Positions 9,721 through 44,213 of a stretch of DNA of 53,275 nt are shown here, piece by piece. The notes under the pieces are model-generated. The model did not search any database, had not been told where the DNA came from, and worked only from the letters and a program-made list of their open reading frames with translations. Made by a program: the position numbers and the translations under genes. The stretch lies in the NCBI GenBank assembly GCA_027618255.1, contig JAQCFG010000007.1, positions 1 through 53,275 of the forward strand, in the 5' to 3' direction. Position 1 is the first letter of the stretch. The number at the start of each line of letters is the position of its first letter. Source of the DNA: Cyanobacteriota bacterium. Its GTDB lineage: Bacteria > Cyanobacteriota > Vampirovibrionia > LMEP-6097.

Positions 9721-10575
9721 GTGATTGAAGAGCTAGAATGCATGAAATTAGAGTATGACTCATTGCGTAAAGGCAAGGCAAGCTTGCTCGCTTTATTGGA
9801 TGAAGCCGAAGTTGCAGAGGCAGTATATAACTCCAATGCTATTGAAAATTCAACTCTGACTTTAAAACAAACAGAGCAGATTCTTTTGGAGCTTGAGTTT
9901 AGTTCTGATCTATCTTTGCGAGAAATATATGAAGCGAAAAACTTGGCTAGAGTTGTTGAATACATTAGAGCCAAGTCTAAAGAGCAAGAGTTGAACCAAG
10001 AGATGATTGTGCTTTTGCATAAAATGCTGTTGGGTGGCATTGATGACAAAATCGCTGGACGTTTGAGAGCAGTTGGTGAGTACGTTAGAGTCGCCAATCA
10101 TGTTGCTGCTGCGCCAGAGAAGCTAGAAGAATTGTTGCAAATGGCTTTTGTAAATTATAGTAGTAGTATTAGTCGCAATATTATAGAGAGGATTGCTGAG
10201 TTTCATTTGGAGTTTGAAAACATTCATCCTTTTTGTGATGGTAATGGCAGGATTGGTAGAGTGCTGATAAATTATCAATTGCAGCGTCAAGGATTTCCTC
10301 CGGTAATTATTCGTGATAAAGAGAAGGCTGATTATTACTCTGCATTTAGAGATTATGATAGTAGCCACAAAACTAGGGGCATGGAAAAAATCTTAATCCT
10401 GGCAATCCAGGAATCAATCCATAAGCGGCTTGCATACATGAAAGGTTTGAAAATAATGAGACTAAGTAACTACGCTAAAACCCAAGATCGTTCTCTTTCT
10501 GCTTTAAGTAATTCTGCCAAGAGACAGACTATTGCAGCGTTTAGAGAGAAAGGTGTTTGGAAGATCGGGGTTTAA
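9721..10575 (+). CDS. Fic/DOC-family AMP-transferase with C-terminal HTH
   Basis: Fic proteins usually transfer AMP from ATP to a target protein. The catalytic loop HPFCDGNGRIGR matches HPFx(D/E)GNGRxxR in full. An N-terminal SNAIEN fits the (S/T)xxxE(G/N) inhibitory-helix motif, so it is a self-inhibited class II Fic. The C-terminal 45 residues (NYAKTQDRSLSALSNSAKRQ) look like a helix-turn-helix. The start at GTG 9721 is chosen because TATAAT lies 7 nt upstream; ATG 9742 is the alternative. The gene converges on def with a 4-bp overlap. The long upstream inverted repeat and the HTH together suggest autoregulation, perhaps as a solitary toxin-like module. Confidence 0.88.
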   Translation: MIEELECMKLEYDSLRKGKASLLALLDEAEVAEAVYNSNAIENSTLTLKQTEQILLELEFSSDLSLREIYEAKNLARVVEYIRAKSKEQELNQEMIVLLHKMLLGGIDDKIAGRLRAVGEYVRVANHVAAAPEKLEELLQMAFVNYSSSISRNIIERIAEFHLEFENIHPFCDGNGRIGRVLINYQLQRQGFPPVIIRDKEKADYYSAFRDYDSSHKTRGMEKILILAIQESIHKRLAYMKGLKIMRLSNYAKTQDRSLSALSNSAKRQTIAAFREKGVWKIGV

Positions 10576-11144
10576 CCCAAAATCATCGGCGGCGGCGAGT
10601 TAACATCTCCAAATCCATGATTTGCAAGTTCTTCGCGAGCAATAGCTTTGTCTAAGGCAATATCCACAAATAATTTACCGTTAAGGTGATCGATTTCATG
10701 TTGGACGCAACGACAAAAAAGATCCTCTGCTGCTTCTACTCTATAGTCCTTACCTTTGAGGTCTTGAAACTTGAAAATGATTCTGCGAGCACGTTTGACC
10801 TTGAAAAATACATCTGGGAAACTTAAGCAACCCTCAAAACTATCCATCTCACCTTCTTGATAAACAATTACTGGGTTGATCATTACCACAGGATTGTATT
10901 CTGGTTCTTTATTGCGCTCTTCTTCATATCTTTCTGAAGCCCAGTCAATATCAATGATTAGAATCCTTTGATTGACACCGATTTGCGGGGCAGCTAAGCC
11001 GATACCGTTTTGGTGGTACATCGTTTTGAGCATTTTGTCGACGATCTTTTCTAGTTTGCGATCGAACTTAGAAACTACTGAACAGGGTTGACGCAGTAGT
11101 TCAGAGCCGTATTTTTCAATTTGATAGTATTTGCTTTCGCTCAT
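10572..11144 (-). CDS. def: Peptide deformylase
   Basis: This metallohydrolase removes the formyl group from the N-terminal Met of new proteins. All three motifs are present: GIGLAAPQIGV, EGCLSFP (metal-binding Cys) and QHEIDHLNGKLF (HExxH-type, catalytic Glu). The 190-residue length is normal. The start ATG overlaps the lpxA stop by 4 bp, so the genes are coupled. The stop overlaps the fic stop on the other strand by 4 bp. Confidence 0.97.
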   Translation of the reverse strand: MSESKYYQIEKYGSELLRQPCSVVSKFDRKLEKIVDKMLKTMYHQNGIGLAAPQIGVNQRILIIDIDWASERYEEERNKEPEYNPVVMINPVIVYQEGEMDSFEGCLSFPDVFFKVKRARRIIFKFQDLKGKDYRVEAAEDLFCRCVQHEIDHLNGKLFVDIALDKAIAREELANHGFGDVNSPPPMILG

Positions 11145-11917
11145 CGTGATTTGTGATTAAAGGTATTGAGGGCAACCCCTCTAGTACTAGCTTTAATGAA
11201 ATTAATTATATAGCGAATTTCCGCGCTTTGTTCTAACTCGGTTTCTAAGCGCTGAATCAGGTTGTCTCTATTGAGTCTTTCTTTACAATAGATGATTTTA
11301 AATGCGCGCATAATTTCACTAAGACTAGTTTGATCAAAGTCGGCGCGTTTTAAACCAATGCGATTAGTTGAAATCGCCCCAGCTGGTACGCCCATATAAA
11401 TAAAGAAGGGAATGAGATCGTGATTAGCTGCTGCCATTCCGGACATCATTGCATACTTGCCAATACGACAATGCTGATGCACCATTGCGCCGCCACCAAG
11501 AGTTACGTTGTTTTCAATATGAACATAGCCACCAAGGCAAGTGTTGTTTGCCATAACTACATTGTTGCCAATTTGGCTATTGTGCCCAACATGACTGCCG
11601 ACCATAAACATATTGTTGTTGCCAATTTTGGTTAGTTTGCCTTCTCCTGTCGCTTTGTGCACAGTTGCAAATTCACGGATGATATTGTTGTCGCCAATTT
11701 CGACATAACTAGTTTCGCCTTTGTATGCATGATCTTGAGGCTCACCACCAATCAGCACATGTGCTGAGATTTTGTTGTTGGCTCCGATTCTAGTACCAGA
11801 ACGAATAATACTGTACTCACCTATTACGGTGTTTTCACCAATGATTACGTCATCTTCTATAATCGCAGTGTTGGCGATTCGGGCATTACTGGCAATCATG
11901 TTCTTAGTTGAAAGCAC
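11141..11917 (-). CDS. lpxA: UDP-N-acetylglucosamine acyltransferase
   Basis: LpxA performs the first step of lipid A synthesis. The 258-residue product is a hexapeptide-repeat left-handed beta helix (IGENTVIGEYSIIRSGTRIG and on). The catalytic region SHVGHNSQIGNN keeps both conserved His. GGEPQDHAYKGE and the C-terminal ASTRGVAL match the family. The start is ambiguous. GTG 11917 has TATATT 7 nt upstream, as at other genes here. ATG 11899 aligns best with the E. coli N-terminus. def follows with a 4-bp overlap. The gene implies an outer membrane with lipid A. Confidence 0.93.
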   Translation of the reverse strand: MLSTKNMIASNARIANTAIIEDDVIIGENTVIGEYSIIRSGTRIGANNKISAHVLIGGEPQDHAYKGETSYVEIGDNNIIREFATVHKATGEGKLTKIGNNNMFMVGSHVGHNSQIGNNVVMANNTCLGGYVHIENNVTLGGGAMVHQHCRIGKYAMMSGMAAANHDLIPFFIYMGVPAGAISTNRIGLKRADFDQTSLSEIMRAFKIIYCKERLNRDNLIQRLETELEQSAEIRYIINFIKASTRGVALNTFNHKSR

Positions 11918-33295: not shown

Positions 33296-34099
33296 TTAGT
33301 TTAATAAGTCCCCTCGTTTCTGGCGAGTTAGTTTGATTGCCTCAGCTAAACGCCACAAGAATATTTTTTTGTGATCACCTGATTCCAGTATCTCTGGTAT
33401 CTTTTCTCCGCGAAAATCAGCAGGACGAGTGTAATGTGGGTGTTCTAATAACTGAAGCTCTTCAAGCTCTTCACGACTAATACCAGTTTCTTCAAGGAAA
33501 TTAGTCATTTCTTTTTTGCTGACTTGCAGTTCTTTGAGCTTCTCTAGATAGTTGAGTTTACTAAAACTTTCTTCTTTAAGACTTTCCGGGTCTCCTAATA
33601 CTCCAGGTATATGTCTCACTGTTGCATCAATGATGCTGAGAGCAGCAAGCTCACCGCCCGTTAAAACATAGTCACCAACAGAGATTTCCATTGTGGCTCT
33701 GTCTCTGATTCTCTGATCAAAACCTTCGTAGCGCCCGCAAAGGATGACAAGCTGCTTTTTTGTAGAAAGCTCGCGGGCGAGTTCTTGATTAAATGGAATA
33801 CCAGATGGACTTGTTACTATTATTTCCATGGTCTCGGGATGGGGAGCTGGCGTAACGCAATTATCGGAGTTCAGAACGACCTCAGCAAGGCAATCAATCC
33901 ATGGTTGTGGACTCAGCACCATCCCAGCCCCGCCACCATAAGGCGTATCATCGACCTTATGATGTTTGTCTTTTGAGTAATCACGAGGATTGTGAGTCTT
34001 GAGTTGGTAGAGATTTTGTTTTAGTGCAAGACCCAGAATACTTGTTTGACAATAATTCTCAATTAACTCCGGGAAGAGACTTAGTACATCAATTTGCAT
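33296..34099 (-). CDS. trmD: tRNA (guanine-37-N1)-methyltransferase
   Basis: TrmD methylates G37 of tRNAs reading CNN codons and prevents frameshifting. From ATG 34099 the protein has 267 residues and starts MQIDVLSLFPELIENY. The SPOUT knot motifs YGGGAGMVLSPQPW, LCGRYEGFDQRI and SVGDYVLTGGELAALSIIDA are present. It overlaps the upstream lipoprotein gene by 11 bp. It is not in the usual rpsP-rimM-trmD-rplS operon. Confidence 0.96.
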   Translation of the reverse strand: MQIDVLSLFPELIENYCQTSILGLALKQNLYQLKTHNPRDYSKDKHHKVDDTPYGGGAGMVLSPQPWIDCLAEVVLNSDNCVTPAPHPETMEIIVTSPSGIPFNQELARELSTKKQLVILCGRYEGFDQRIRDRATMEISVGDYVLTGGELAALSIIDATVRHIPGVLGDPESLKEESFSKLNYLEKLKELQVSKKEMTNFLEETGISREELEELQLLEHPHYTRPADFRGEKIPEILESGDHKKIFLWRLAEAIKLTRQKRGDLLN

Positions 34100-35141
34100 G
34101 CTTGGCTTTTCCTTTGCGAATATAGTTGTGGTCTTGAGCAATTTGAGTTAAGAGGTCTAGTTTGTTTTGATCTAAGTTAGTGTCAAAGCTTAATTTGTTG
34201 AGACTTTCAGCTAGAAAGCCATAGAGGATATTTTTCTTGGTGATTTGGTTGAGATGCTGTTGTATTAGAGTTATAGACTCGTCTTTATTGTTCTTGAGGT
34301 AGTCTAGGATGGCATCTTGTTCTTTGACAAAGTCGTCAACTATCTTAGTATTTTTATTGTAGAAATCTTCATCAACCACAAGTAGGGCGGCAGGGAATTG
34401 ATTGATGAACTGTAATTGATGATGAATAAAATCGTTTTCATTACCTTCAAGCTCATTGACCAAAATATTGCTGGAATGAAAGGATAGTTTGCTTAGATTG
34501 GTGTAGCCCTTTCCTTCTAAGATCGTGCCCCAAGGTTCTGCAACGAAGGCAGCGTCAATATCACCAGTAAAGAAGACAGTTTCAAGTTCTGCTGGATTGA
34601 CTGCAATGTATTGAAGTCGTTTAGAGAATTTGATAGTTGGTGGTTCAAGCATCTGCTTCATTTCAGGACTGAGCTTTTTGTATCTGGCTTTCTGTTCTTT
34701 TGTTTGTGCTACTAAGTACTTGGCAAGCAAGTCTTGAGTATTGCCAATTTGCGGGATACCGAGTTTCTTGATTTGGAAATCTTTGCCTATTTGATACTTG
34801 TCACTAAGTATCAAACTATTAGCGCCGCTACTACTGAGTTTGAGAAGCTTGAGCTTAACTCCTTTGCTTAGTGCGTTAAGGTAAGGACCGGGACCGATAT
34901 AGGCAATATCCAGATTCTTGGTGATTAAGGCATTGAGCAGATAGCCACCAGAGCTAAAATACTGAGTCTCAACATTGGTAAAAGCTCGGCTTTCAATACC
35001 AATCATTGCAACAGCGTGACTGACGTTAAGTAGATAGCCAAGTCTTAGTTCTTGTGCGTTTTCTTTAGTTTTGAAACTAGTACAAGATGCCAAGAATACG
35101 CATACTAATAAGCATACAAATTTTAAATATGAATTACGCAA
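34089..35141 (-). CDS. ABC transporter substrate-binding lipoprotein (NitT/TauT-like)
   Basis: The protein resembles SsuA/TauA/ThiY-type binding proteins. After the signal peptide come LRLGYLLNVSHAVAMIG, NLDIAYIGPGPYLNAL and a second lobe with DIDAAFVAEPWGTIL. The lipobox is LASC. I chose TTG 35141, which gives a compact signal peptide (MRNSYLKFVCLLVCVFLASC) and starts 10 nt after the rplC stop; the longer frame to 35198 would overlap rplC. Substrate is unknown and no permease or ATPase gene is adjacent. It may bind an oxyanion, amine or pyrimidine precursor. Confidence 0.8.
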   Translation of the reverse strand: MRNSYLKFVCLLVCVFLASCTSFKTKENAQELRLGYLLNVSHAVAMIGIESRAFTNVETQYFSSGGYLLNALITKNLDIAYIGPGPYLNALSKGVKLKLLKLSSSGANSLILSDKYQIGKDFQIKKLGIPQIGNTQDLLAKYLVAQTKEQKARYKKLSPEMKQMLEPPTIKFSKRLQYIAVNPAELETVFFTGDIDAAFVAEPWGTILEGKGYTNLSKLSFHSSNILVNELEGNENDFIHHQLQFINQFPAALLVVDEDFYNKNTKIVDDFVKEQDAILDYLKNNKDESITLIQQHLNQITKKNILYGFLAESLNKLSFDTNLDQNKLDLLTQIAQDHNYIRKGKAKHAN

Positions 35142-35151
35142 AGTTGAAGGA

Positions 35152-35829
35152 CTAAGCGTCTTTATTATAATGATTCCAAGATTTAACACAACGAGCACTA
35201 AATCTAAGTATAGAACCTTTTTTACCAGGTACAGGACCTCTGACTAGTAGAAGACGGTTTTCTGCATCATATTTAACCACTTTAGCTTTAGCAATCGATA
35301 CTTGTTTGTTACCCATTCTACCTGGCATACGTTTTCCTTTGAATACACGTCCAGGAGAAGTACCTGCACCAGATGAACCAACTTGTCTTTTGGATTTTGA
35401 ACCATGGCTGTTTCTACCAACGCTCATATTGTGTCTTTTGACACCACCCTGAAAACCTTTACCAATAGAGGTTCCAGTAATTTTGACGGTTTTAAGATCT
35501 TTGAAGAATTCTTCTATGTCGATTGCGTCGCCGACTTTGATTCCTTCGATAGCTTCATGAGTTCTAAATTCAAAGAACTTGCTCAAACTAGGCAAGTTAT
35601 CTTTTTGTAATTTGGCAAGTTGTGGCTTTTTAACCAGCTTGTCTCTTTTGGTAAAGTTGCCCACTTGAATTGCAGTGTAACCATCACGTGCTTGGGTTTT
35701 GATATCAGTTACGATATTTTCAGATATTTCTACTACTGTTACTGGAATTACGTCTCCGTCTTCACCAAAAATTTGGGTCATTCCCACTTTTTTGCCTACT
35801 ACTCCATAGTCTTGTGTTGTTGTGGCCAT
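35152..35829 (-). CDS. rplC: 50S ribosomal protein L3
   Basis: L3 is an early-binding 23S rRNA protein near the peptidyl transferase centre. The 225-residue protein has VGKKVGMTQIFGEDGDVIPV, the rRNA loop GFQGGVKRHNMSVGRNSHGS and GRMGNKQVSIAKAKVV. AAAGGAG lies 7 nt before ATG 35829, one of the best Shine-Dalgarno sites here. Unusually it stands alone: rplD, rplW and the rest of the S10 operon are absent, and a lipoprotein gene follows. Confidence 0.97.
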   Translation of the reverse strand: MATTTQDYGVVGKKVGMTQIFGEDGDVIPVTVVEISENIVTDIKTQARDGYTAIQVGNFTKRDKLVKKPQLAKLQKDNLPSLSKFFEFRTHEAIEGIKVGDAIDIEEFFKDLKTVKITGTSIGKGFQGGVKRHNMSVGRNSHGSKSKRQVGSSGAGTSPGRVFKGKRMPGRMGNKQVSIAKAKVVKYDAENRLLLVRGPVPGKKGSILRFSARCVKSWNHYNKDA

Positions 35830-35870: not shown

Positions 35871-36011
35871 GACTACGGTTTTAGCACAGCAACCCCATGG
35901 CTGGGACTTCATGCCTTTGTACAATAGGTATTTTAGCTTTTTGAGCAATGACGGATTCTTAAGACAATATTGAGGTCATATCTTGATAGGGTTTTTCTTG
36001 AATTTGCGTAA

Positions 36012-36036
36012 TATAATAGAAATTCGATCAAAGGAG
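36012..36036 (+). promoter_or_regulatory. -10 box and strong ribosome-binding site of the hexokinase-like gene
   Basis: TATAAT (36012-36017) predicts a start near 36024. AAAGGAG (36030-36036) lies 9 nt before the ATG at 36046. This is a conventional leader, unlike the leaderless genes nearby. Confidence 0.65.
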
Positions 36037-36045
36037 ATTGTAAAT

Positions 36046-37497
36046 ATGTCTAATTTAACAATTATTAATCGTGGTGCTGTTCGTAACATCCAAGAAGTTA
36101 AAAAGGTACTTGATGATAGAGAGACTTTGGCTGAAACAGGTCAAGTAGGAGGTACTAATGTCAGGGCTGCTATTGCAACTGTGCCAAAGGGTTTAAGCAA
36201 CCCGAGTATTGATCATATTAGAGTTGATACTTTTGTGCTTGAAGGTAAAGATGCCTATGAAGAGTCAGGGTATACTGCTTTGCGTAAAGATCTTGCTCTG
36301 TTGAGAGATATCAGTGCATTGACTGTTGAGAAGGCTCATCAATGTGCTCGTAATCTCAAGATGCTTTTTGGTTTTTCTGGAGCTCCGGTTACTAATCATG
36401 AATTTATGACAAGGAATCTGGTTGCGTCTTTTATTGAAAATGAAGATAGAGGACTCTTCTTTATACCGAATGTTAAAGCGTTTTCTAATGATGGAAAGAA
36501 TGCATATTTATTAGACCTGCCCAATATGATGAATGGAGCACTTCCTCAAGTGCAATCAAGGTACAAATTTGAAAATAACCAGGGTCAGGAAAGAAAGGAA
36601 TGGTATTCACCAGAAGCTATTCAAGCGAGAAATGACAAAACTGCTTCTATTAAAGTTGTTAACGATGCAGTGGCACATGTTAGATTTCAGGCTGACAATT
36701 ATAGTCAAGGAGCAAGTTTGTTGCACTTGGTAATGTCGACAGGAGCCAATACAGCAGTAGGATACAAGAAACAAGATGATGAACTAGGAAATTTCCAGAA
36801 ATCATTTAATATGGAATCTGGGCATGTTCCTTTCTCGGAACTTTTTGAAGACGCAAGTAAATCACCCTTGATGATTAGACAAGACTGCTTTGAAGATGCG
36901 ACATTCGAAAAAGTTATGGCTGGTGGTAATTCTAATAATCCTCGAACAGGCTTGGCTGGTTTGGTGAGAGATTTAAGGGAACAGCATGGATTAATATCTG
37001 AGTTTGTAGAGAAGGCGAATTATGGATATGCTTTGCTTATAGAATCTGCTCTTGGCGACAATAATAATATCAGCGTGGATGAAATATTAAAGAGTTCACT
37101 TTTCATTGATAAAGATGTTACTCAAGATTTAAATCAAGCTATTGAAGAAGCCGCAATCAACGGAGACAAGTTTGCAAAAGTGCTCACTGCAATTTGGGCA
37201 TCAGACTTAGCTAAAGCGGTTAATGGAATTGCAGCTAGTGCCAAAGTGAGTTTGGCTGCTGATCATGATGTCAAGTTTAACTTCTCAATGAATGGAAGTG
37301 TTGCTTATGGTTTATTAGACAACGACTCGTCAGAGCTTGATTACCTTAAAGAGATTTTTGCAAAAGGCTTAGATGCTGAGTGCTTTATTAAAGAAAATGA
37401 TATTACCATGTTGAATGCTTCAAGACCAGCAGCAGAGATGGACGGACTAGTAGAACAAGCATACAAGTTTGCTGTAGCTGCTGTTCAAGCTGCTTAA
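36046..37497 (+). CDS. Divergent eukaryote-type hexokinase-like protein
   Basis: The 483-residue product follows the hexokinase motif order. GQVGGTNVRAA matches the phosphate-1 loop (DLGGTNxR) with Asp changed. GFSGAPV follows. VVNDAVAHV matches LINDTTGTL and keeps the catalytic Asp. VMSTGANTAV matches the GTGxN loop with Gly changed to Ser. NMESGHVPF matches NCEYGSF. ATFEKVMAGG matches FEKMxSG. FSMNGSVAYG matches the DGSVY loop with Asp changed to Asn. This is the hexokinase fold with altered phosphate loops, so activity is uncertain. It has its own promoter and converges on the transporter fusion with a 4-bp overlap. Pgi lies nearby, consistent with glucose use. Confidence 0.75.
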   Translation: MSNLTIINRGAVRNIQEVKKVLDDRETLAETGQVGGTNVRAAIATVPKGLSNPSIDHIRVDTFVLEGKDAYEESGYTALRKDLALLRDISALTVEKAHQCARNLKMLFGFSGAPVTNHEFMTRNLVASFIENEDRGLFFIPNVKAFSNDGKNAYLLDLPNMMNGALPQVQSRYKFENNQGQERKEWYSPEAIQARNDKTASIKVVNDAVAHVRFQADNYSQGASLLHLVMSTGANTAVGYKKQDDELGNFQKSFNMESGHVPFSELFEDASKSPLMIRQDCFEDATFEKVMAGGNSNNPRTGLAGLVRDLREQHGLISEFVEKANYGYALLIESALGDNNNISVDEILKSSLFIDKDVTQDLNQAIEEAAINGDKFAKVLTAIWASDLAKAVNGIAASAKVSLAADHDVKFNFSMNGSVAYGLLDNDSSELDYLKEIFAKGLDAECFIKENDITMLNASRPAAEMDGLVEQAYKFAVAAVQAA

Positions 37498-39530
37498 CCC
37501 TTCGCAAACTCCTTAACCTCACCGACATAAGGAATAAATCCTTGTTGTACTTCTTGAGGAAGATCAATTAGTGAGTAGTCTTGCGAGCTAACAAACATCA
37601 AAGCTTGTTTGCCTTTGCCAACCAAGTCACCTGTTTTGGTTTCAATGATTTGGTGCTCGAGAGTTACAAATTTGCGATTGTATTCACCGATTCTGATTTT
37701 GATTAGCACTTCAGTAAATTCATTAATTTCTTTTTGGAACTTGTGATCAATACTGCGTGTAAGAATCAAGTAATCTGATTTATTTGGATCAAAGTCTGGA
37801 ATTACGTGTGCAAAAAACAATTCGCGAGTTTTACCAACCCACATTAAGTACATTGCAAAATAAACATTGCCAACGGAGTTGGTGTCTTGGTAAGTCGGGA
37901 TGAATTGATGTACAAACCAGTTGTCGTGTATGTAGCAACCCTTGATACTGACTGGCTTAGCGCCGTTAGGTAGGGCGTCATTACTGTTGTAGTGAATCTC
38001 TTGGGCTCTAAACTCTTCTATGTTGATGTTTTGGTTTTGACTAAGTATTTTGGCTTCTGTTGGGATAGCTTTGTTACTGCTTTTTTTTGCTTCACAGATC
38101 CAACCATAAATAAAAGCAAGAATTGCAGCGATTGCCATTAGTAGTGTGTTTTCGGTGAAGTAACCAATACCAAAAATTGCGATGCTGGAAAGTGCCGTAG
38201 AAAACAATCTAAGAGCAGAGAACTTGGAGCTACTGTCTTCTGTTTTAGCCATCTTGCGATAGAAACAAACTGAATAAACCAAGAAGAATGAAGCAAAGAA
38301 AGCAACATAGTACTCAAGCTCGAATCTAAAGAACTGAATCAAATTAGGGTCAAAGCTGGCTATGAATTTGCCAAACTCCGTGAAGTGCATAGTGCTAATT
38401 GCAGCAACTATACAAAGTGTGAACCAAGGAATGGCTGAACTGATTAGCGTGCTTGGAATAAAGGTAAAAATCAATCCCTTAGCATCTTTAACGAGCGATT
38501 CTGTATACCACTTGTAGGCTATATAGCCACTGTCAAAAGTGGCAAGTGCCGCAAGTCCAATAAAGACCATGTAAGAACCAAGTAGGATATTGAAATCTGG
38601 ATAGTTACTGAGTACCTGGGTGATTGTATCTTTGACAGGATAGAGTAAACTGCTTGGATCAATTGTTGAGAGGCTGGTGATTAAGCCAGCATGGCTTTGT
38701 CCAAATTGATGGCAGGCAAGCGCCAGTGAACCGTCTACCATTATCACGCACCAGAAAATCAAACCGCCGATGATATAAGACTTGGCTACTGAGCCGCCTT
38801 CTTTATTGATTTGTACAACTCTGTGCCAGTTTTGTAAATCCAACCACGGACCGCAGAGAAAGCCCAGTAAGACCGGGATCCAGTATGCAAATTCACTAAT
38901 GCCGTTTTTGAATTGATAGAGACCTGGGTATTGGCTAGCATCATTAAACCAACCTAATAAGCCTGGAGTCAGTGATAATTCTGCTTTGAGTCCTTGTGAA
39001 CCAGAGCTAAGAGCTGCTTTGATCATTGATTCAGAGCTAAAAAGTTCTGAATTCAATATTATCAATGCGGCAGTGAGCATGATTACTGCATAAAAAGCAT
39101 GTAAGTATTTGATCCTAGTAATAGGAAACTCTTCTCCCAAGAAAATTACCGCACCAATTAACATCATTCCAACAAGAAACGAAAATATTCCAAGAGGAAG
39201 GGTGATGTATTTAAGTAAGCAGTAGATGGTAAGAGTGATTGCGACGAATTGATAAAACAAAAGAGCAAATTTGAAACTCTTGGCTTGCGTCAAGAATTTA
39301 TTCTCAAACTCCTCTGGGTTTTGAGATTTTTTGATTAGTTGATGATTCACTAGTCCAAAAATTGTTAAACCAACGGCGTCAATAGTTGCAAACTTGATTA
39401 AGTCATTAAAGCCAAATTGAATTGCAACTTGAACTGCAAAAAATAAACCTAAACCCCAAGTCCAAGTTAGTGCTACTGAGTTGCCCCAAAGTAGGTTGTT
39501 CCAAGACTTCATTAGTGGATTTTTAGTCAT
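37494..39530 (-). CDS. Polytopic membrane transporter-like protein fused to a hot-dog thioesterase
   Basis: The 678-residue product has about twelve hydrophobic helices in residues 1-470, resembling a secondary transporter (GLGLFFAVQVAIQFGF, IPVLLGFLCGPWLDLQNWHR). After a linker, residues 535-670 form a hot-dog domain. FIPTYQDTNSVGNVYFAMYL followed by MWVGKTRELFF matches acyl-ACP/CoA thioesterases of the 4HBT class, including the CalE7/DynE7 group with its NxVGNVYFxxY motif. The fused gene would couple membrane passage to thioester hydrolysis; the substrate is unknown. It converges on the hexokinase-like gene with a 4-bp overlap and follows pgi on the same strand. There is no frameshift or stop between the parts. 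Confidence 0.75.
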   Translation of the reverse strand: MTKNPLMKSWNNLLWGNSVALTWTWGLGLFFAVQVAIQFGFNDLIKFATIDAVGLTIFGLVNHQLIKKSQNPEEFENKFLTQAKSFKFALLFYQFVAITLTIYCLLKYITLPLGIFSFLVGMMLIGAVIFLGEEFPITRIKYLHAFYAVIMLTAALIILNSELFSSESMIKAALSSGSQGLKAELSLTPGLLGWFNDASQYPGLYQFKNGISEFAYWIPVLLGFLCGPWLDLQNWHRVVQINKEGGSVAKSYIIGGLIFWCVIMVDGSLALACHQFGQSHAGLITSLSTIDPSSLLYPVKDTITQVLSNYPDFNILLGSYMVFIGLAALATFDSGYIAYKWYTESLVKDAKGLIFTFIPSTLISSAIPWFTLCIVAAISTMHFTEFGKFIASFDPNLIQFFRFELEYYVAFFASFFLVYSVCFYRKMAKTEDSSSKFSALRLFSTALSSIAIFGIGYFTENTLLMAIAAILAFIYGWICEAKKSSNKAIPTEAKILSQNQNINIEEFRAQEIHYNSNDALPNGAKPVSIKGCYIHDNWFVHQFIPTYQDTNSVGNVYFAMYLMWVGKTRELFFAHVIPDFDPNKSDYLILTRSIDHKFQKEINEFTEVLIKIRIGEYNRKFVTLEHQIIETKTGDLVGKGKQALMFVSSQDYSLIDLPQEVQQGFIPYVGEVKEFAKG

Positions 39531-39618: not shown

Positions 39619-41511
39619 TTATGCACTAAGGGCAAAGTTCCTGACTGACTCTGGTGTGAGTTCGTTTTTACCTGTCTTGAAGGCTTCAACTCCATCTTGA
39701 TAAACTGATCGCTGTACATTATTTCTAATAGTTCTAGGTACTTCTTTACCGAGCTCAACGAAGTTGACTGGAATAGTTTGATCTGACTGTGCTGAACCAT
39801 CTTCTATATTATCCTGTAATCCAGCTTGAACTACTGTTGTTAGCATATCTCTCATTAAGAGATAGCCAATATTGTATTCATTGATATCATCCATGATAGT
39901 CGTAACCACAGGGTTCTTTCTATTGTCACGCAAGTGAGCAGCGAGCGGCAATGCTAGCTTGGTGATAGTTTCTTGGTGTAATGAAGTTCTAGCAACATCT
40001 TCGAGTTCAGGAAGATCGTGGTTGCTATGAACCATATCGTCATGATCTCTCTTGCTGATAACTTGTTCAAAAACTAATCTGTGTTTATCGTTTCGTCCCA
40101 CTCCTTCAATAGTTGAGTGTTGGAATAATGGACCAGTTGTATTAATTATTGCAAGTGCATCGACTCCATTGTTCTTAGCCTCGTCGCCTTTGGAATTACT
40201 TTCTCCAGCTAGCTGTTCTTTGACACGCCCAGCTTGAGCTAACCTATCTGTGTAGGAAGCAACAAACTTGGCATCAAACTTGCCTGATCTTGCTGCAAGA
40301 GTATCAAGCAAAGCAAGTTTGCCCACTTCTGAATTTTGTATATCTTTTTCTGCAAAGAATTCATCTATGGCAGCTTGAGAGCCAGCTTTGAATTGATCAA
40401 GCTTGAGACCCTTGAGTGCTGCTGGTAGCATACCTACAGCCGTTAAGAAGGAGAACCTACCACCAACTCGATCTGGGTGTTCTACTACTTTAGGTTTAGT
40501 TCCTGTTTTCTTCAGAATACTATCAGCCAGTTTGCGTAATGTACCTGTACCTGGTTCAGTAACAAAAACAGCTTGCTCTGCAAATTGTCTTAATGCCGCT
40601 TCTTTGTCGCCGTGATGTAATTTGGTTAGATGATCTAGAATACTTTGAACTACGTGTTTGACTTCAAAAGTGCCGCCTGATTTGGAGATGATCAGAAAGG
40701 CTGTTTTGTTGTTTAGCTGTTTAGTTTCATTAGCTTGAATTTGCAATGACTTGAATTTAGATTTGAGACTGGCTGAATCCGTACCATCCATGACTTCCAT
40801 CTTGAAATTATTTCCAAGTCCTCCTTGAGGGAAGGTATCATTAATGACTTTGGGGAATTGAGAAGAGCCGCCCATGCCCATGACTAGAGCTTTGTTGAAA
40901 CCCTCTTCATGAAGTGAATCAGCAACTTGCTGAGCTTCAGCCATACTTTGAGTTATGACGCCATTAATATCCAACCATTTGAAGTATTCAAGCCCAGCCT
41001 CAGAGTTATTTGCATTAGCTAATGCTGTTTGAGTTTGCTGGAATCTATTGTTATAAGTTTGATAATCAGCACCTTGTACAAACGCAGCTAAACCGCCCGT
41101 GGTGATACTGTCAACAAAGGCGTCATCAACTAGAGTGCTAACTCCTTGTTCTTTGATAGTTTGATTTGGAAAAAATGCTGCAAAATATTTATCCAAGACT
41201 TGTTCTTTGAATTTAATTACTAGATTAGACAATAAAGTTTGTAGCTTATTTCTTAATGTGATAGGGAGGTATTGATGTTGCGCATTAGGCATTTTAGGCA
41301 TTATAGTTGTCAGATTAGAGTCCATTTTTGACAGCGCTTCAAAGCTTGATCTAACGCTAGTTGCGTCAAAGTTAATTACCTGTCCATCATCGCTAAAATA
41401 GTCTTTGATTTCTGGCCAAGCACCTGTAGCAGTTTTGACTTGAGCAAACTTACTACCTTGTTCGTAATTAGTTTTCGCAAGTGTATTAAGTATGGCTGTT
41501 ATTGTTGACAT
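39619..41511 (-). CDS. pgi: Glucose-6-phosphate isomerase, long form
   Basis: Pgi interconverts glucose 6-phosphate and fructose 6-phosphate. At 630 residues it is longer than the usual 450-550, mostly through an N-terminal extension of about 150 residues. The sugar-isomerase core is clear: VMGMGGSSQFPKVI, LIISKSGGTFEVKHV and HPDRVGGRFSFLTAVGMLPA. AAAGGAG precedes the ATG at 41511 by about 11 nt. It lies upstream of the transporter fusion and near the hexokinase-like gene, giving a small sugar-catabolism neighbourhood. Confidence 0.93.
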   Translation of the reverse strand: MSTITAILNTLAKTNYEQGSKFAQVKTATGAWPEIKDYFSDDGQVINFDATSVRSSFEALSKMDSNLTTIMPKMPNAQHQYLPITLRNKLQTLLSNLVIKFKEQVLDKYFAAFFPNQTIKEQGVSTLVDDAFVDSITTGGLAAFVQGADYQTYNNRFQQTQTALANANNSEAGLEYFKWLDINGVITQSMAEAQQVADSLHEEGFNKALVMGMGGSSQFPKVINDTFPQGGLGNNFKMEVMDGTDSASLKSKFKSLQIQANETKQLNNKTAFLIISKSGGTFEVKHVVQSILDHLTKLHHGDKEAALRQFAEQAVFVTEPGTGTLRKLADSILKKTGTKPKVVEHPDRVGGRFSFLTAVGMLPAALKGLKLDQFKAGSQAAIDEFFAEKDIQNSEVGKLALLDTLAARSGKFDAKFVASYTDRLAQAGRVKEQLAGESNSKGDEAKNNGVDALAIINTTGPLFQHSTIEGVGRNDKHRLVFEQVISKRDHDDMVHSNHDLPELEDVARTSLHQETITKLALPLAAHLRDNRKNPVVTTIMDDINEYNIGYLLMRDMLTTVVQAGLQDNIEDGSAQSDQTIPVNFVELGKEVPRTIRNNVQRSVYQDGVEAFKTGKNELTPESVRNFALSA

Positions 41512-41594
41512 TTAGAATATACTCCTTTGTAAATAAACTCAAGTAGATAATAGCCCAATGGGTATTGTTATGCAACCCGTATGGCTAGGGAGAA

Positions 41595-44213
41595 TCACTG
41601 GGATGACGTAAACAGCGGCAACTTCTCTATCTCAAGTGAACCATCAAGGGCAATTGCTTCACCAATACCGTGTTGATCAATTTGTTTTTTGCTCATACCG
41701 AGCTTGCGATTACGTTGAGCCTGTAGCTGATTGTTAATGGCTTTGGCTCTTTCTAGCACTTGTTTTGGCAGACCAGCGAGGCGGGCTACTTCTATACCAT
41801 AACTTTTGTCGGCTGAACCCTCTACTACTTTGTGCAAGAATTCAATTCGTGCCTTGGCATTTGGATTATTATTCTCTGCAACAAGTACTTGGTAGTTTTG
41901 TACGATTGGAAAAACCTTGTCAAGATTGGCTAGCTCATGATAGTGAGTTGCAAAAATGGTTCTTGGTTTGCTGTTCTTGGCTAAGTATTCAACAATTGAC
42001 CAAGCGATGGCAACGCCATCATAAGTACTGGTTCCTCTACCAATCTCATCAAGCACCACAAAGCTCTTAGAGCTCATGCCGTTAAGAATACTTGCCGTCT
42101 CAACCATCTCAACCATGAAGGTTGAGCGTCCGGAAGCAAGATCATCACTGGCTCCAATTCTGGTAAATATTCTATCTACTAAACCTATACGTGCAGCTTG
42201 AGCTGGGACGTAAGAGCCGATTTGTGCAAGTATGATGATGAGAGCGTTTTGGCGCATGTAGGTACTTTTGCCAGCCATGTTTGGACCGGTCAATATAATG
42301 ATTTTTTCTGCATTGTTCAGTGATATATCATTAGCAACAAACTCACCCAATCCAAGTTTCTGTTCAACCACTGGATGTCTACCATCTTTAATATAAAGCT
42401 CATCACTGTTGTTCAATTCTGGCAGGCAATAGTTTTGCTCTTTGGCAAGAATTGCCATTGAGGTGAGCGCATCAAGCTCGGCGACTTGATTAGCTAGTTC
42501 TTTGATGATGCGTGCTGGCTCTGACATTGTTTTGCGCAAGCTAGTAAAGATCTGGTGCTCAAGGGCGTTACGCCTAGCCTGTGCGTTAGTGATCTTGTCC
42601 TCAAATTCTTTAAGCTCTTCGGTGACGGCTCTTACCGTGTTGATCATTGTTTGCCTGATGATGTAGTGATCAGGTAATTTACTTTGATTGGCTCTGGATG
42701 TTTCGATAAAATATCCGTGCACTTTATTAAACGCGACTTTGATATTCTTGATACCAGTTTCAGTTCTTTGAGTTTCTTCAAAATTGCGTAGCCATGATTC
42801 GGAATCCTCCACTAAGCCAATCAATTCATCAAGCTCTTGATTAAATCCTGCTTTGATTATATTGCCGTCAGTGATTGCCATTCCTGGCTCAGGGTGAATA
42901 GCATCCTCTACTAATCGAGTGAAATCTAATACTTCTTGAGGGATATGTTTGAGGCTAGTTAGCAAACCTGATTCAAGGTTTTGCATCAAGCTTGAGATCT
43001 GAGCTACTAGTAATAAAGAATCCTTCAGCGCGATTGCTTCTTTGGGGTTAATGAGTTGGCTGATTAATCTATTGGAGAGTCTATCAATATCGTAGCTATT
43101 AGAAAGTAGGTCTCGGATTTCTTGCGCTAGTTGGTTTTGACCAATCAGTTCAGTGACAGCTGCTTGCCTTGCTTGAATCATCTCTAGATTGAATAGCGGT
43201 TGCTCCAGCCATGAAAGCAAACGACGTTTGCCAGGTTTGGAAGCTGTGCGGTCTATCATGGCAAAGAGACTATCTTTAGTTTTGCCATTGAGACATTTGC
43301 TGATTTCAAGATTGCTTCTACTGCTAGCGTCAAGCATCATAAATTCGCCAACTTGATAGCTCTTGATTTGATCAAAACTTTTGGCAGCTTGACTACTGAA
43401 GCTCTGTCCTTGAGTCTCTTTGAGGTATTCAATAATTGCGCCAGCGGCTCTTAACGCAAAGTCATTCTTCGCAAAACTCGCTTCAAAGTTGTGACTCATG
43501 TTGCTACCAAAAATATCTTCAAGATTGTGGCTTGCTAGTTTCTTGTCGAAGTTGCGTTTGTTAAAGGGACTAAGATTAAGTTCTTGATAGATTGTTTCTA
43601 GTTTGAAACAGATTTCTTCCTCTGCGACAAACTGTCCCTCTTGGCGCGCTTGAGTTTCCGAAGGTATGATTATTTCAGCTGGGTTAATTCTAGTGAGTTC
43701 TTGCTGAAGGTATTCTTCTTGGACTTCTGTTGCATAAAACTCTCCCGTTGAAATATCAGCGTAAGCTAAACCATAATTACTAAATGGGGCTTTGGAGTAA
43801 AGAGCCAGGATGAAGTTGTTTTTGTAACCATCAATCAAATCAAGATCGTTGATTGTGCCCGGAGTGAAGACCTTGGCAATTGCTCGCGGTACTAATCCCT
43901 TGCAGTCCTTAGGATCAGCCATTTGCTCAGCGATATAGACCTTGTAGTTGTTTTCCAGTAGTTTGGCGATATAAGGGCGAACCGCTCTTGCCGGTACTCC
44001 AGCCATGGGGATGCGCCCGCCGGGATAGTTGTTCTCAGCTCTGCCTGTAAGGGTGATATCGAGCTCTTTGGCGATAGTGGTGGCATCATCAAAGAATGCC
44101 TCATAAAAATCCCCCATTCTAAATAAAAGTACTGCTTTGCCGGTGATTTTACTTCTTTCGTTGAAGTATTGCTGCATTACAGGAGTGAATTTCTCTATTG
44201 GCAGGCTTGGCAT
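41595..44213 (-). CDS. mutS: DNA mismatch repair protein MutS
   Basis: MutS recognises mismatches and starts repair. The 872-residue protein has the N-terminal mismatch-binding motif with Phe and Glu (RMGDFYEAFFDDA), connector and lever domains, and an ABC-type ATPase with Walker A TGPNMAGKSTYMRQ, the GASDDLASGRSTFMVEM signature and DEIGRGTSTYDG. Length is normal. TAAGAT ends 7 nt before the ATG, suggesting a leaderless mRNA. mutL is not adjacent. Confidence 0.97.
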   Translation of the reverse strand: MPSLPIEKFTPVMQQYFNERSKITGKAVLLFRMGDFYEAFFDDATTIAKELDITLTGRAENNYPGGRIPMAGVPARAVRPYIAKLLENNYKVYIAEQMADPKDCKGLVPRAIAKVFTPGTINDLDLIDGYKNNFILALYSKAPFSNYGLAYADISTGEFYATEVQEEYLQQELTRINPAEIIIPSETQARQEGQFVAEEEICFKLETIYQELNLSPFNKRNFDKKLASHNLEDIFGSNMSHNFEASFAKNDFALRAAGAIIEYLKETQGQSFSSQAAKSFDQIKSYQVGEFMMLDASSRSNLEISKCLNGKTKDSLFAMIDRTASKPGKRRLLSWLEQPLFNLEMIQARQAAVTELIGQNQLAQEIRDLLSNSYDIDRLSNRLISQLINPKEAIALKDSLLLVAQISSLMQNLESGLLTSLKHIPQEVLDFTRLVEDAIHPEPGMAITDGNIIKAGFNQELDELIGLVEDSESWLRNFEETQRTETGIKNIKVAFNKVHGYFIETSRANQSKLPDHYIIRQTMINTVRAVTEELKEFEDKITNAQARRNALEHQIFTSLRKTMSEPARIIKELANQVAELDALTSMAILAKEQNYCLPELNNSDELYIKDGRHPVVEQKLGLGEFVANDISLNNAEKIIILTGPNMAGKSTYMRQNALIIILAQIGSYVPAQAARIGLVDRIFTRIGASDDLASGRSTFMVEMVETASILNGMSSKSFVVLDEIGRGTSTYDGVAIAWSIVEYLAKNSKPRTIFATHYHELANLDKVFPIVQNYQVLVAENNNPNAKARIEFLHKVVEGSADKSYGIEVARLAGLPKQVLERAKAINNQLQAQRNRKLGMSKKQIDQHGIGEAIALDGSLEIEKLPLFTSSQ

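Follow-up and report, generated by a model that had tools for sequence, protein, structure and literature searches.

The window analysed here (the whole 53,275-nucleotide stretch, positions 1 to 53,275 of contig JAQCFG010000007.1, assembly GCA_027618255.1, from a Cyanobacteriota bacterium) carries on its minus strand, at 37494-39530, a gene in which a membrane domain related to sodium:solute symporters (SSS, also SLC5) is joined in frame to a hot-dog thioesterase of the CalE7/DynE7 type. The fusion is conserved in all nine genomes examined of the order to which the organism belongs and recurs on a plasmid of another phylum. We propose that the gene product acts as one bifunctional inner-membrane protein: the thioesterase would work at the cytoplasmic mouth of an SSS-type carrier, which would either carry the released acid or gate the enzyme; we put the probability of this reading at roughly 0.45.

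Domain organisation of the fusion protein

The open reading frame (ORF) encodes 678 amino acids (aa) plus a stop, starts with ATG and has zero internal stops. Hydropathy analysis revealed 12 strongly hydrophobic segments within residues 19-479, followed by a soluble C-terminus. Since the loops between the 12 helices are positively charged on one side, both termini are predicted to lie inside, which places the thioesterase in the cytoplasm and gives a predicted answer to the topology question raised in a preliminary description of this DNA. The gene divides as follows:

37494..39530, minus strand: whole fusion gene (SSS-like membrane domain, linker, hot-dog thioesterase); open frame, with the same arrangement in 9/9 order genomes and in Methylorubrum extorquens AM1
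38091..39530, minus strand: SSS/SLC5-like transporter domain, residues 1-480, about 12 transmembrane (TM) helices, predicted N-in/C-in, without the usual helix TM(-1)
37935..38090, minus strand: linker, residues 481-532; both its length and its sequence vary in the order alignment, with a ratio of non-synonymous to synonymous substitutions (dN/dS) of ~0.3 in informative pairs
37521..37934, minus strand: CalE7/DynE7-type hot-dog thioesterase domain, residues 533-670, assigned by Pfam 4HBT_2, PDB sequence matches, model and Foldseek; predicted cytoplasmic

The preliminary description, made from the sequence alone, had seen a transporter-like region running in frame into a CalE7/DynE7-like hot-dog domain and knew of no standard family with this order. 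The uninterrupted frame of 678 codons, the 12 hydrophobic segments and the 4HBT_2 match agree with the first statement. As to the second, no Pfam or NCBIfam family describes the combination, and none matches the membrane part.

Conservation of the fusion

Nine genomes of the order Caenarcaniphilales, non-photosynthetic relatives of cyanobacteria, were compared. The same in-frame fusion was found in all nine, as a whole ORF in seven and cut solely by contig ends in two, where the truncated copies still run across the joint between membrane part and thioesterase. Among 60 relatives searched, every member of the window's own family had the fusion protein. Outside the order, 386 phylum genomes were searched with a profile of the TM domain, and 386 of the phylum and 382 of the class with a profile of the whole protein; neither profile revealed a fusion. 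Three apparent matches outside the order were rejected as an ordinary 140-aa YbgC-like thioesterase (L010), a spurious match (L022) and a thioesterase not of the CalE7 type (L151), respectively. In one genome of the order (G005) the fusion gene occurs twice, as overlapping but non-identical copies that lie at contig ends (C72, C216); they are either paralogues or the result of a strain mixture in the bin.

Between close relatives, dN/dS was 0.03-0.06 for the membrane part, ~0.01-0.03 for the thioesterase and clearly higher for the linker (0.3 in informative pairs), the length of which differs between genera in the order alignment. Low values in both halves and a high value in the linker indicate that the halves are maintained, whereas the joint is flexible.

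When 72,556 plasmids were searched in translation with only the membrane domain, a single record was returned, the megaplasmid of Methylorubrum extorquens AM1 (E 7e-11). The thioesterase domain alone matched the same site (47.9% identity, E 4e-36). The AM1 ORF (L144:5986-7821), at a locus for which the plasmid record has no gene table, encodes 611 aa with the same domain layout as the window protein. In the coordinates of NC_012811.1 it lies on the minus strand at about 658420-660240. The window protein and its relatives in the order share 22-24% identical aa with AM1 in the membrane part and 48-49% in the thioesterase (~23% and ~49%, respectively, for the window protein alone), and the alignment showed the motifs GPWLDxQxW-R and T-x-DS-x-Y as well as the thioesterase motif to be common to AM1 and the order fusions. 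Among the plasmids AM1 alone has the fusion, the remaining matches being stand-alone thioesterases of Streptomyces, Nonomuraea and Sinorhizobium; no relative of the fusion was found in viral contigs. In AM1 the fusion gene is neighboured by two 550-aa ORFs (L144:8149-9813 and 9977-11650) with no Pfam match, after which a CtrA-like response regulator follows.

The presence of the same fusion in the order and in AM1 implies either that the halves have remained together since a very distant split or that the gene was transferred between phyla. Our sequence searches covered Cyanobacteriota, plasmids, phages and E. coli, and the fusion family may extend further and may have been annotated automatically elsewhere. 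An artefact, that is two genes merged through a sequencing error or a missed stop, has only its unusual domain order to recommend it and can practically be set aside: the fusion is common to nine genomes and to an independent, complete plasmid sequence of another phylum. The possibility that relatives would show two separate genes had been raised in the preliminary description, and every relative in the order, together with AM1, has the fusion instead.

The C-terminal half: a CalE7/DynE7-type thioesterase

Pfam 4HBT_2 matches residues 548-664 (E 3.6e-10, 40.8 bits, cut-off 25.5) and is the sole Pfam domain in the whole fusion protein at E up to 1. The motif QDTNSVGNVYFAMYL at residues 548-562 lies within this match. 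Among solved structures the best relatives are the enediyne polyketide thioesterases SgcE10, DynE7 and CalE7 and two more (E 2.6e-11 to 2.2e-9); enzymes of the YbgC type rank far behind. The model of the domain reached a pLDDT of ~80-89 over most of its length, with a dip at residues 541-556. A Foldseek search matched it to 5vpj (E 9e-9) and CalE7 (E 1.7e-8); over 5vpj, CalE7, EspE7, SgcE10 and DynE7 the E-values were 1e-8 to 1e-7 with a target TM-score of ~0.8, which indicates a hot-dog fold. The EspE7 structure 9ccr is, by its entry title, an R35A mutant. Two residues align with positions of interest in CalE7:

37878..37880, minus strand: codon of N551, aligned with CalE7 Asn19, invariant in the order and AM1
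37824..37826, minus strand: codon of R569, aligned with CalE7 Arg37, invariant in the order and AM1

Ordinary YbgC/4HBT thioesterases have an aspartate at the position equivalent to N551. A catalytic role of Asn19 and Arg37 in CalE7 was reportedly described by Kotaka in 2009. Judged by alignment and model, the C-terminal half of the fusion belongs to the CalE7/DynE7 type of hot-dog thioesterases, and Asn551 and Arg569 occupy the CalE7 catalytic positions. With CalE7, DynE7, SgcE10 and EspE7 (2w3x, 2xem, 4i4j, 9ccr) it shares the fold, the positions of the Asn and Arg and the loss of the usual catalytic Asp. These enzymes are stand-alone, soluble, encoded in polyketide clusters and ~23-30% identical to the fusion thioesterase; in contrast, the latter is C-terminal on a membrane protein and occurs in genomes without a polyketide synthase (PKS). 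A small tree separated the fusion thioesterases and AM1, which forms a long branch, from the polyketide enzymes with a branch support of 95/93.

No ketosynthase ORF of PKS size was found in the nine order genomes. Their ketosynthases are of FabF size only (430-445 aa), together with ORFs of roughly 400 aa with a partial match; one genome (G002) has two extra matches (ORFs of 424 and 461 aa), neither of PKS size. A role in polyketide tailoring was rejected, as no PKS is present in the order genomes, and the substrate of the thioesterase is thus probably an acyl-coenzyme A (acyl-CoA) or acyl carrier protein (acyl-ACP) thioester of primary metabolism.

In contrast, a stand-alone CalE7-like thioesterase of a cyanobacterium (L145:1498-1932) lies directly behind the apparent C-terminus of a PKS-like ORF, an arrangement that suggests an enediyne/polyene-type PKS cluster. 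Two further matches of the thioesterase profile fall within very long frames (L146, G143:C231, 2583 aa; L153, G022:C63, 2463 aa) and are possibly hot-dog domains built into multidomain synthases.

The membrane half: a divergent SSS/SLC5-like domain

The relation of the membrane half to the SSS family was settled by intermediate sequences and not by direct profile comparison. A class-wide search with a profile to which the AM1 sequence had been added returned ORFs of ~500 residues in another family of the class, which are ordinary members of Pfam SSF (E 1.6e-7 to 2.5e-33). One SSF relative, L150, matches Pfam SSF with E 6e-26, and its hhalign comparison with the fusion profile (A5) gave a probability of 97.7 and E 2.1e-12 over a region spanning core TM1-TM8. 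A BLASTP alignment of the window's membrane domain with one SSF relative showed 25% identity over ~250 residues (E 1e-9). A profile built from the combined sequences finds vSGLT (1.7e-35, a figure to which the SSF rows contribute) and other solved SSS proteins. In the alignment, the fusion protein begins at core TM1, without the extra N-terminal helix TM(-1) of SSS proteins, whose N-terminus lies outside, and the SSF relatives have ~40 additional N-terminal residues. When the TM alignment of the order alone was compared directly with SSF proteins aligned from cyanobacteria, the match was weak at default settings (probability 1.9, E 0.026) and strong only under a changed correlation setting; this comparison was discarded, being at background level against decoys (APC, MFS, SNF and a reversed query).

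An AlphaFold2 model of the whole protein from the order-only alignment had a pLDDT of 44.6, with values below 50 in the membrane part, and was not used for the membrane fold. The membrane domain was modelled from an alignment that included the SSF rows and left out the AM1 row, and reached a mean pLDDT of 75.9 and a pTM of 0.81. The top 13 structural matches of this model in Foldseek were all SSS proteins (NIS, SGLT2, DUR3, vSGLT, SiaT, CHT1 and SGLT1; query TM-score 0.50-0.62). As the alignment contained SSF rows, the model is supportive rather than independent. Sequence intermediates and model together indicate that the membrane half is a divergent SSS/SLC5-like domain, descended from the SSS family, in which the ten-helix LeuT-type core and two helices at the C-terminal end are kept and the extra helix at the start is lost.

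Three elements of this core were located in the window protein:

38820..38852, minus strand: GPWLDLQNWHR, residues 227-237, cytoplasmic end of core TM6, aligned with the Q-x-x-x-Q-R loop of vSGLT
38523..38543, minus strand: ATFDSGY, residues 330-336, core TM8, at the Na2 sodium-site position of SSS proteins (alignment to vSGLT)
38733..38735, minus strand: D266, an acidic residue within the membrane in core TM7; it does not vary in the order, and AM1 has Asn instead

Residues T331, D333 and S334 of TM8, glycines 26 and 28 of TM1 and R237 of the TM6 loop are invariant in every fusion that covers them, and R237 is also invariant in the SSF rows. The Na2 site of SSS proteins includes two Ser/Thr hydroxyls in core TM8 (PMC7918813). 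At the second of these positions, residue 330, the window's genus and genus g5 have Ala; AM1 and the remaining genera have Thr or Ser there. From these residues, sodium coupling appears possible in the fusion family and doubtful in the window's genus. With vSGLT, SiaT, PutP, DUR3 and NIS the fusion shares a core that is homologous via intermediates, the TM6-loop Arg, the T-x-D-S of TM8 and the LeuT-type model; unlike them, it lies below Pfam SSF detection, has no TM(-1), lacks, in the window's genus, one of the two Na2 hydroxyls and carries a C-terminal thioesterase.

Invariant residues in the functional core of the SSS fold are more than a membrane anchor needs. This bears on the view that the membrane half is a degenerate SSS-like tether that places the thioesterase at the membrane, for example near fatty-acid or phospholipid synthesis. 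The greater constraint on the thioesterase (49% against 23% identity to AM1; dN/dS ~0.01-0.03 against 0.03-0.06) would suit such a tether, as would the drift of the TM domain beyond the reach of Pfam and the loss of TM(-1). We nevertheless consider it unlikely: the SSS core motifs in TM1, TM6, TM7 and TM8 are strictly conserved, 12 helices would make a costly anchor, and purifying selection on the membrane domain is strong.

Possible functions of the joined halves

In the proposed arrangement, the thioesterase would lie at the cytoplasmic mouth of the SSS-type carrier and would hydrolyse an acyl-CoA or acyl-ACP of primary metabolism. The SSS-like domain would bind the matching carboxylate and either carry it across the membrane or, by its occupancy, set the activity of the thioesterase, as in the transceptor CbrA. 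We infer such a coupling of hydrolysis to the transport or sensing of a carboxylate, and of the two versions favour carriage of a monocarboxylate product or ligand over gating. The stricter form, a vectorial unit of transporter and enzyme in which the carboxylate is released at the inner mouth of the carrier and then passed through the membrane, or in which occupancy gates the enzyme, is put forward tentatively, its odds being below even. The preliminary description had suggested a link between the transport of an acyl compound and thioester cleavage; the identities of transporter and thioesterase were borne out, the former now sharpened to SSS/SLC5, and the coupling stays a proposal.

Several points weigh against our proposal. 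Neither Pfam SSF (PF00474) nor the NCBIfam SSS model matched the window protein or any member of the TM-domain set scanned, and a good membrane model needed SSF rows in its alignment. With A330 one Na2 hydroxyl is absent, so that sodium coupling may be lost in the window's genus. No acyl pathway is found among the neighbours of the fusion (mutS, comM, argH, the glucose-6-phosphate-isomerase-like gene and the genes for L3 and trmD). SSS proteins usually import; the thioesterase would release the acid inside, and a simple pathway of import plus hydrolysis is not obvious.

A rather unlikely alternative, with somewhat more in its favour than the tether, is a transceptor whose SSS-like domain, having lost a useful rate of transport, would detect a ligand from outside or from the membrane and thereby switch the thioesterase in the cytoplasm. 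Fusions of an SSS domain with a cytoplasmic output are an established design (PMC7918813, PMC13022988), and the incomplete Na2 site of the window's genus (A330) and the flexible linker of differing length would fit. However, no STAC-like coupling domain or other signalling domain lies between the halves, the thioesterase is a metabolic and not a signalling output, and hydroxyls occupy both Na2 positions in several other genera and in AM1. The conservation of the core residues suits ligand handling and fits transport equally well.

A role in the CoA/pantothenate economy, with uptake of a pantothenate-like carboxylate and a thioesterase that frees CoA or ACP from stalled thioesters, has a slim chance. 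In its favour, PutP, PanF or PRK10484 is the best-scoring model after the general SSS one, both for the nearest canonical SSS relatives and for the SSS protein that the organism itself encodes (PanF E 2.7e-25 for L159 and 1e-21 for L040). The TM domain of the fusion itself scores with none of these three, and PutP or PRK10484 outscores PanF in several of the relatives.

Genomic context

The names of neighbouring genes were given by sequence reading and profile matches. Directly upstream of the fusion lie two genes:

39619..44213, minus strand: mutS (41595-44213) and a divergent glucose-6-phosphate-isomerase (PGI)-like gene (39619-41511)

The fusion follows mutS on the same strand in all genera in which the contig shows the locus. 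The PGI-like gene (630 aa; Pfam PGI E 3.9e-9, far below equivalog cut-offs) stands between the two in the window's genus and not in genera g2 or g5; in g2 and g5 the fusion is followed by comM-like and argH-like genes. A gene on the plus strand (35983-37497), the 504-aa product of which matches neither Pfam nor NCBIfam, is convergent with the fusion gene and ends 4 bp inside it; ORFs of similar size occupy the same place in relatives (L023:8596-10056, L025:1160-2530, L027:10913-12316). Further on, a gene for an SsuA/NMT1-like ABC substrate-binding lipoprotein (34089-35198, minus strand) stands between trmD and the gene for ribosomal protein L3, with no ABC partner in view.

Relation to known systems and significance

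Both halves of the protein are of known kinds and the union appears new: no description of a symporter-thioesterase fusion was found in the literature, Pfam, NCBIfam, a review of the SSS family or a survey of the hot-dog superfamily. The review discusses kinase fusions and makes no mention of thioesterases (PMC7918813), and the words 'transporter' and 'symporter' do not occur in the text of the survey (PMC516016). Two known designs come close. In CbrA, an SSS domain is joined to a cytoplasmic kinase (PMC7096432, PMC13022988), and the SSS-STAC sensor kinases, like the fusion, carry a functional cytoplasmic domain C-terminally; the output of the fusion is a thioesterase instead of a kinase, and it has no STAC, PAS or kinase domain. 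In Comatose/ABCD1, transport is joined to the hydrolysis of acyl-CoA thioesters in one membrane protein (PMC6642094, PMC7838297). In contrast to the fusion, these are eukaryotic peroxisomal ABC transporters of unrelated fold, with no hot-dog domain and with an activity intrinsic to the membrane domain.

In the fusion, a thioesterase of the CalE7 type is met with in a context other than polyketide synthesis. A vectorial unit, if true, would to our knowledge be the first bacterial secondary transporter physically coupled to thioester cleavage. The homologue of the same layout in the genetically tractable M. extorquens AM1 makes the fusion unusually testable. If the two halves are coupled, the protein would be the secondary-transporter counterpart of both CbrA, which joins transport with signalling, and Comatose/ABCD1, which joins transport with acyl-CoA hydrolysis, and would provide a direct bacterial link between acyl-thioester pools and the traffic of free acids.

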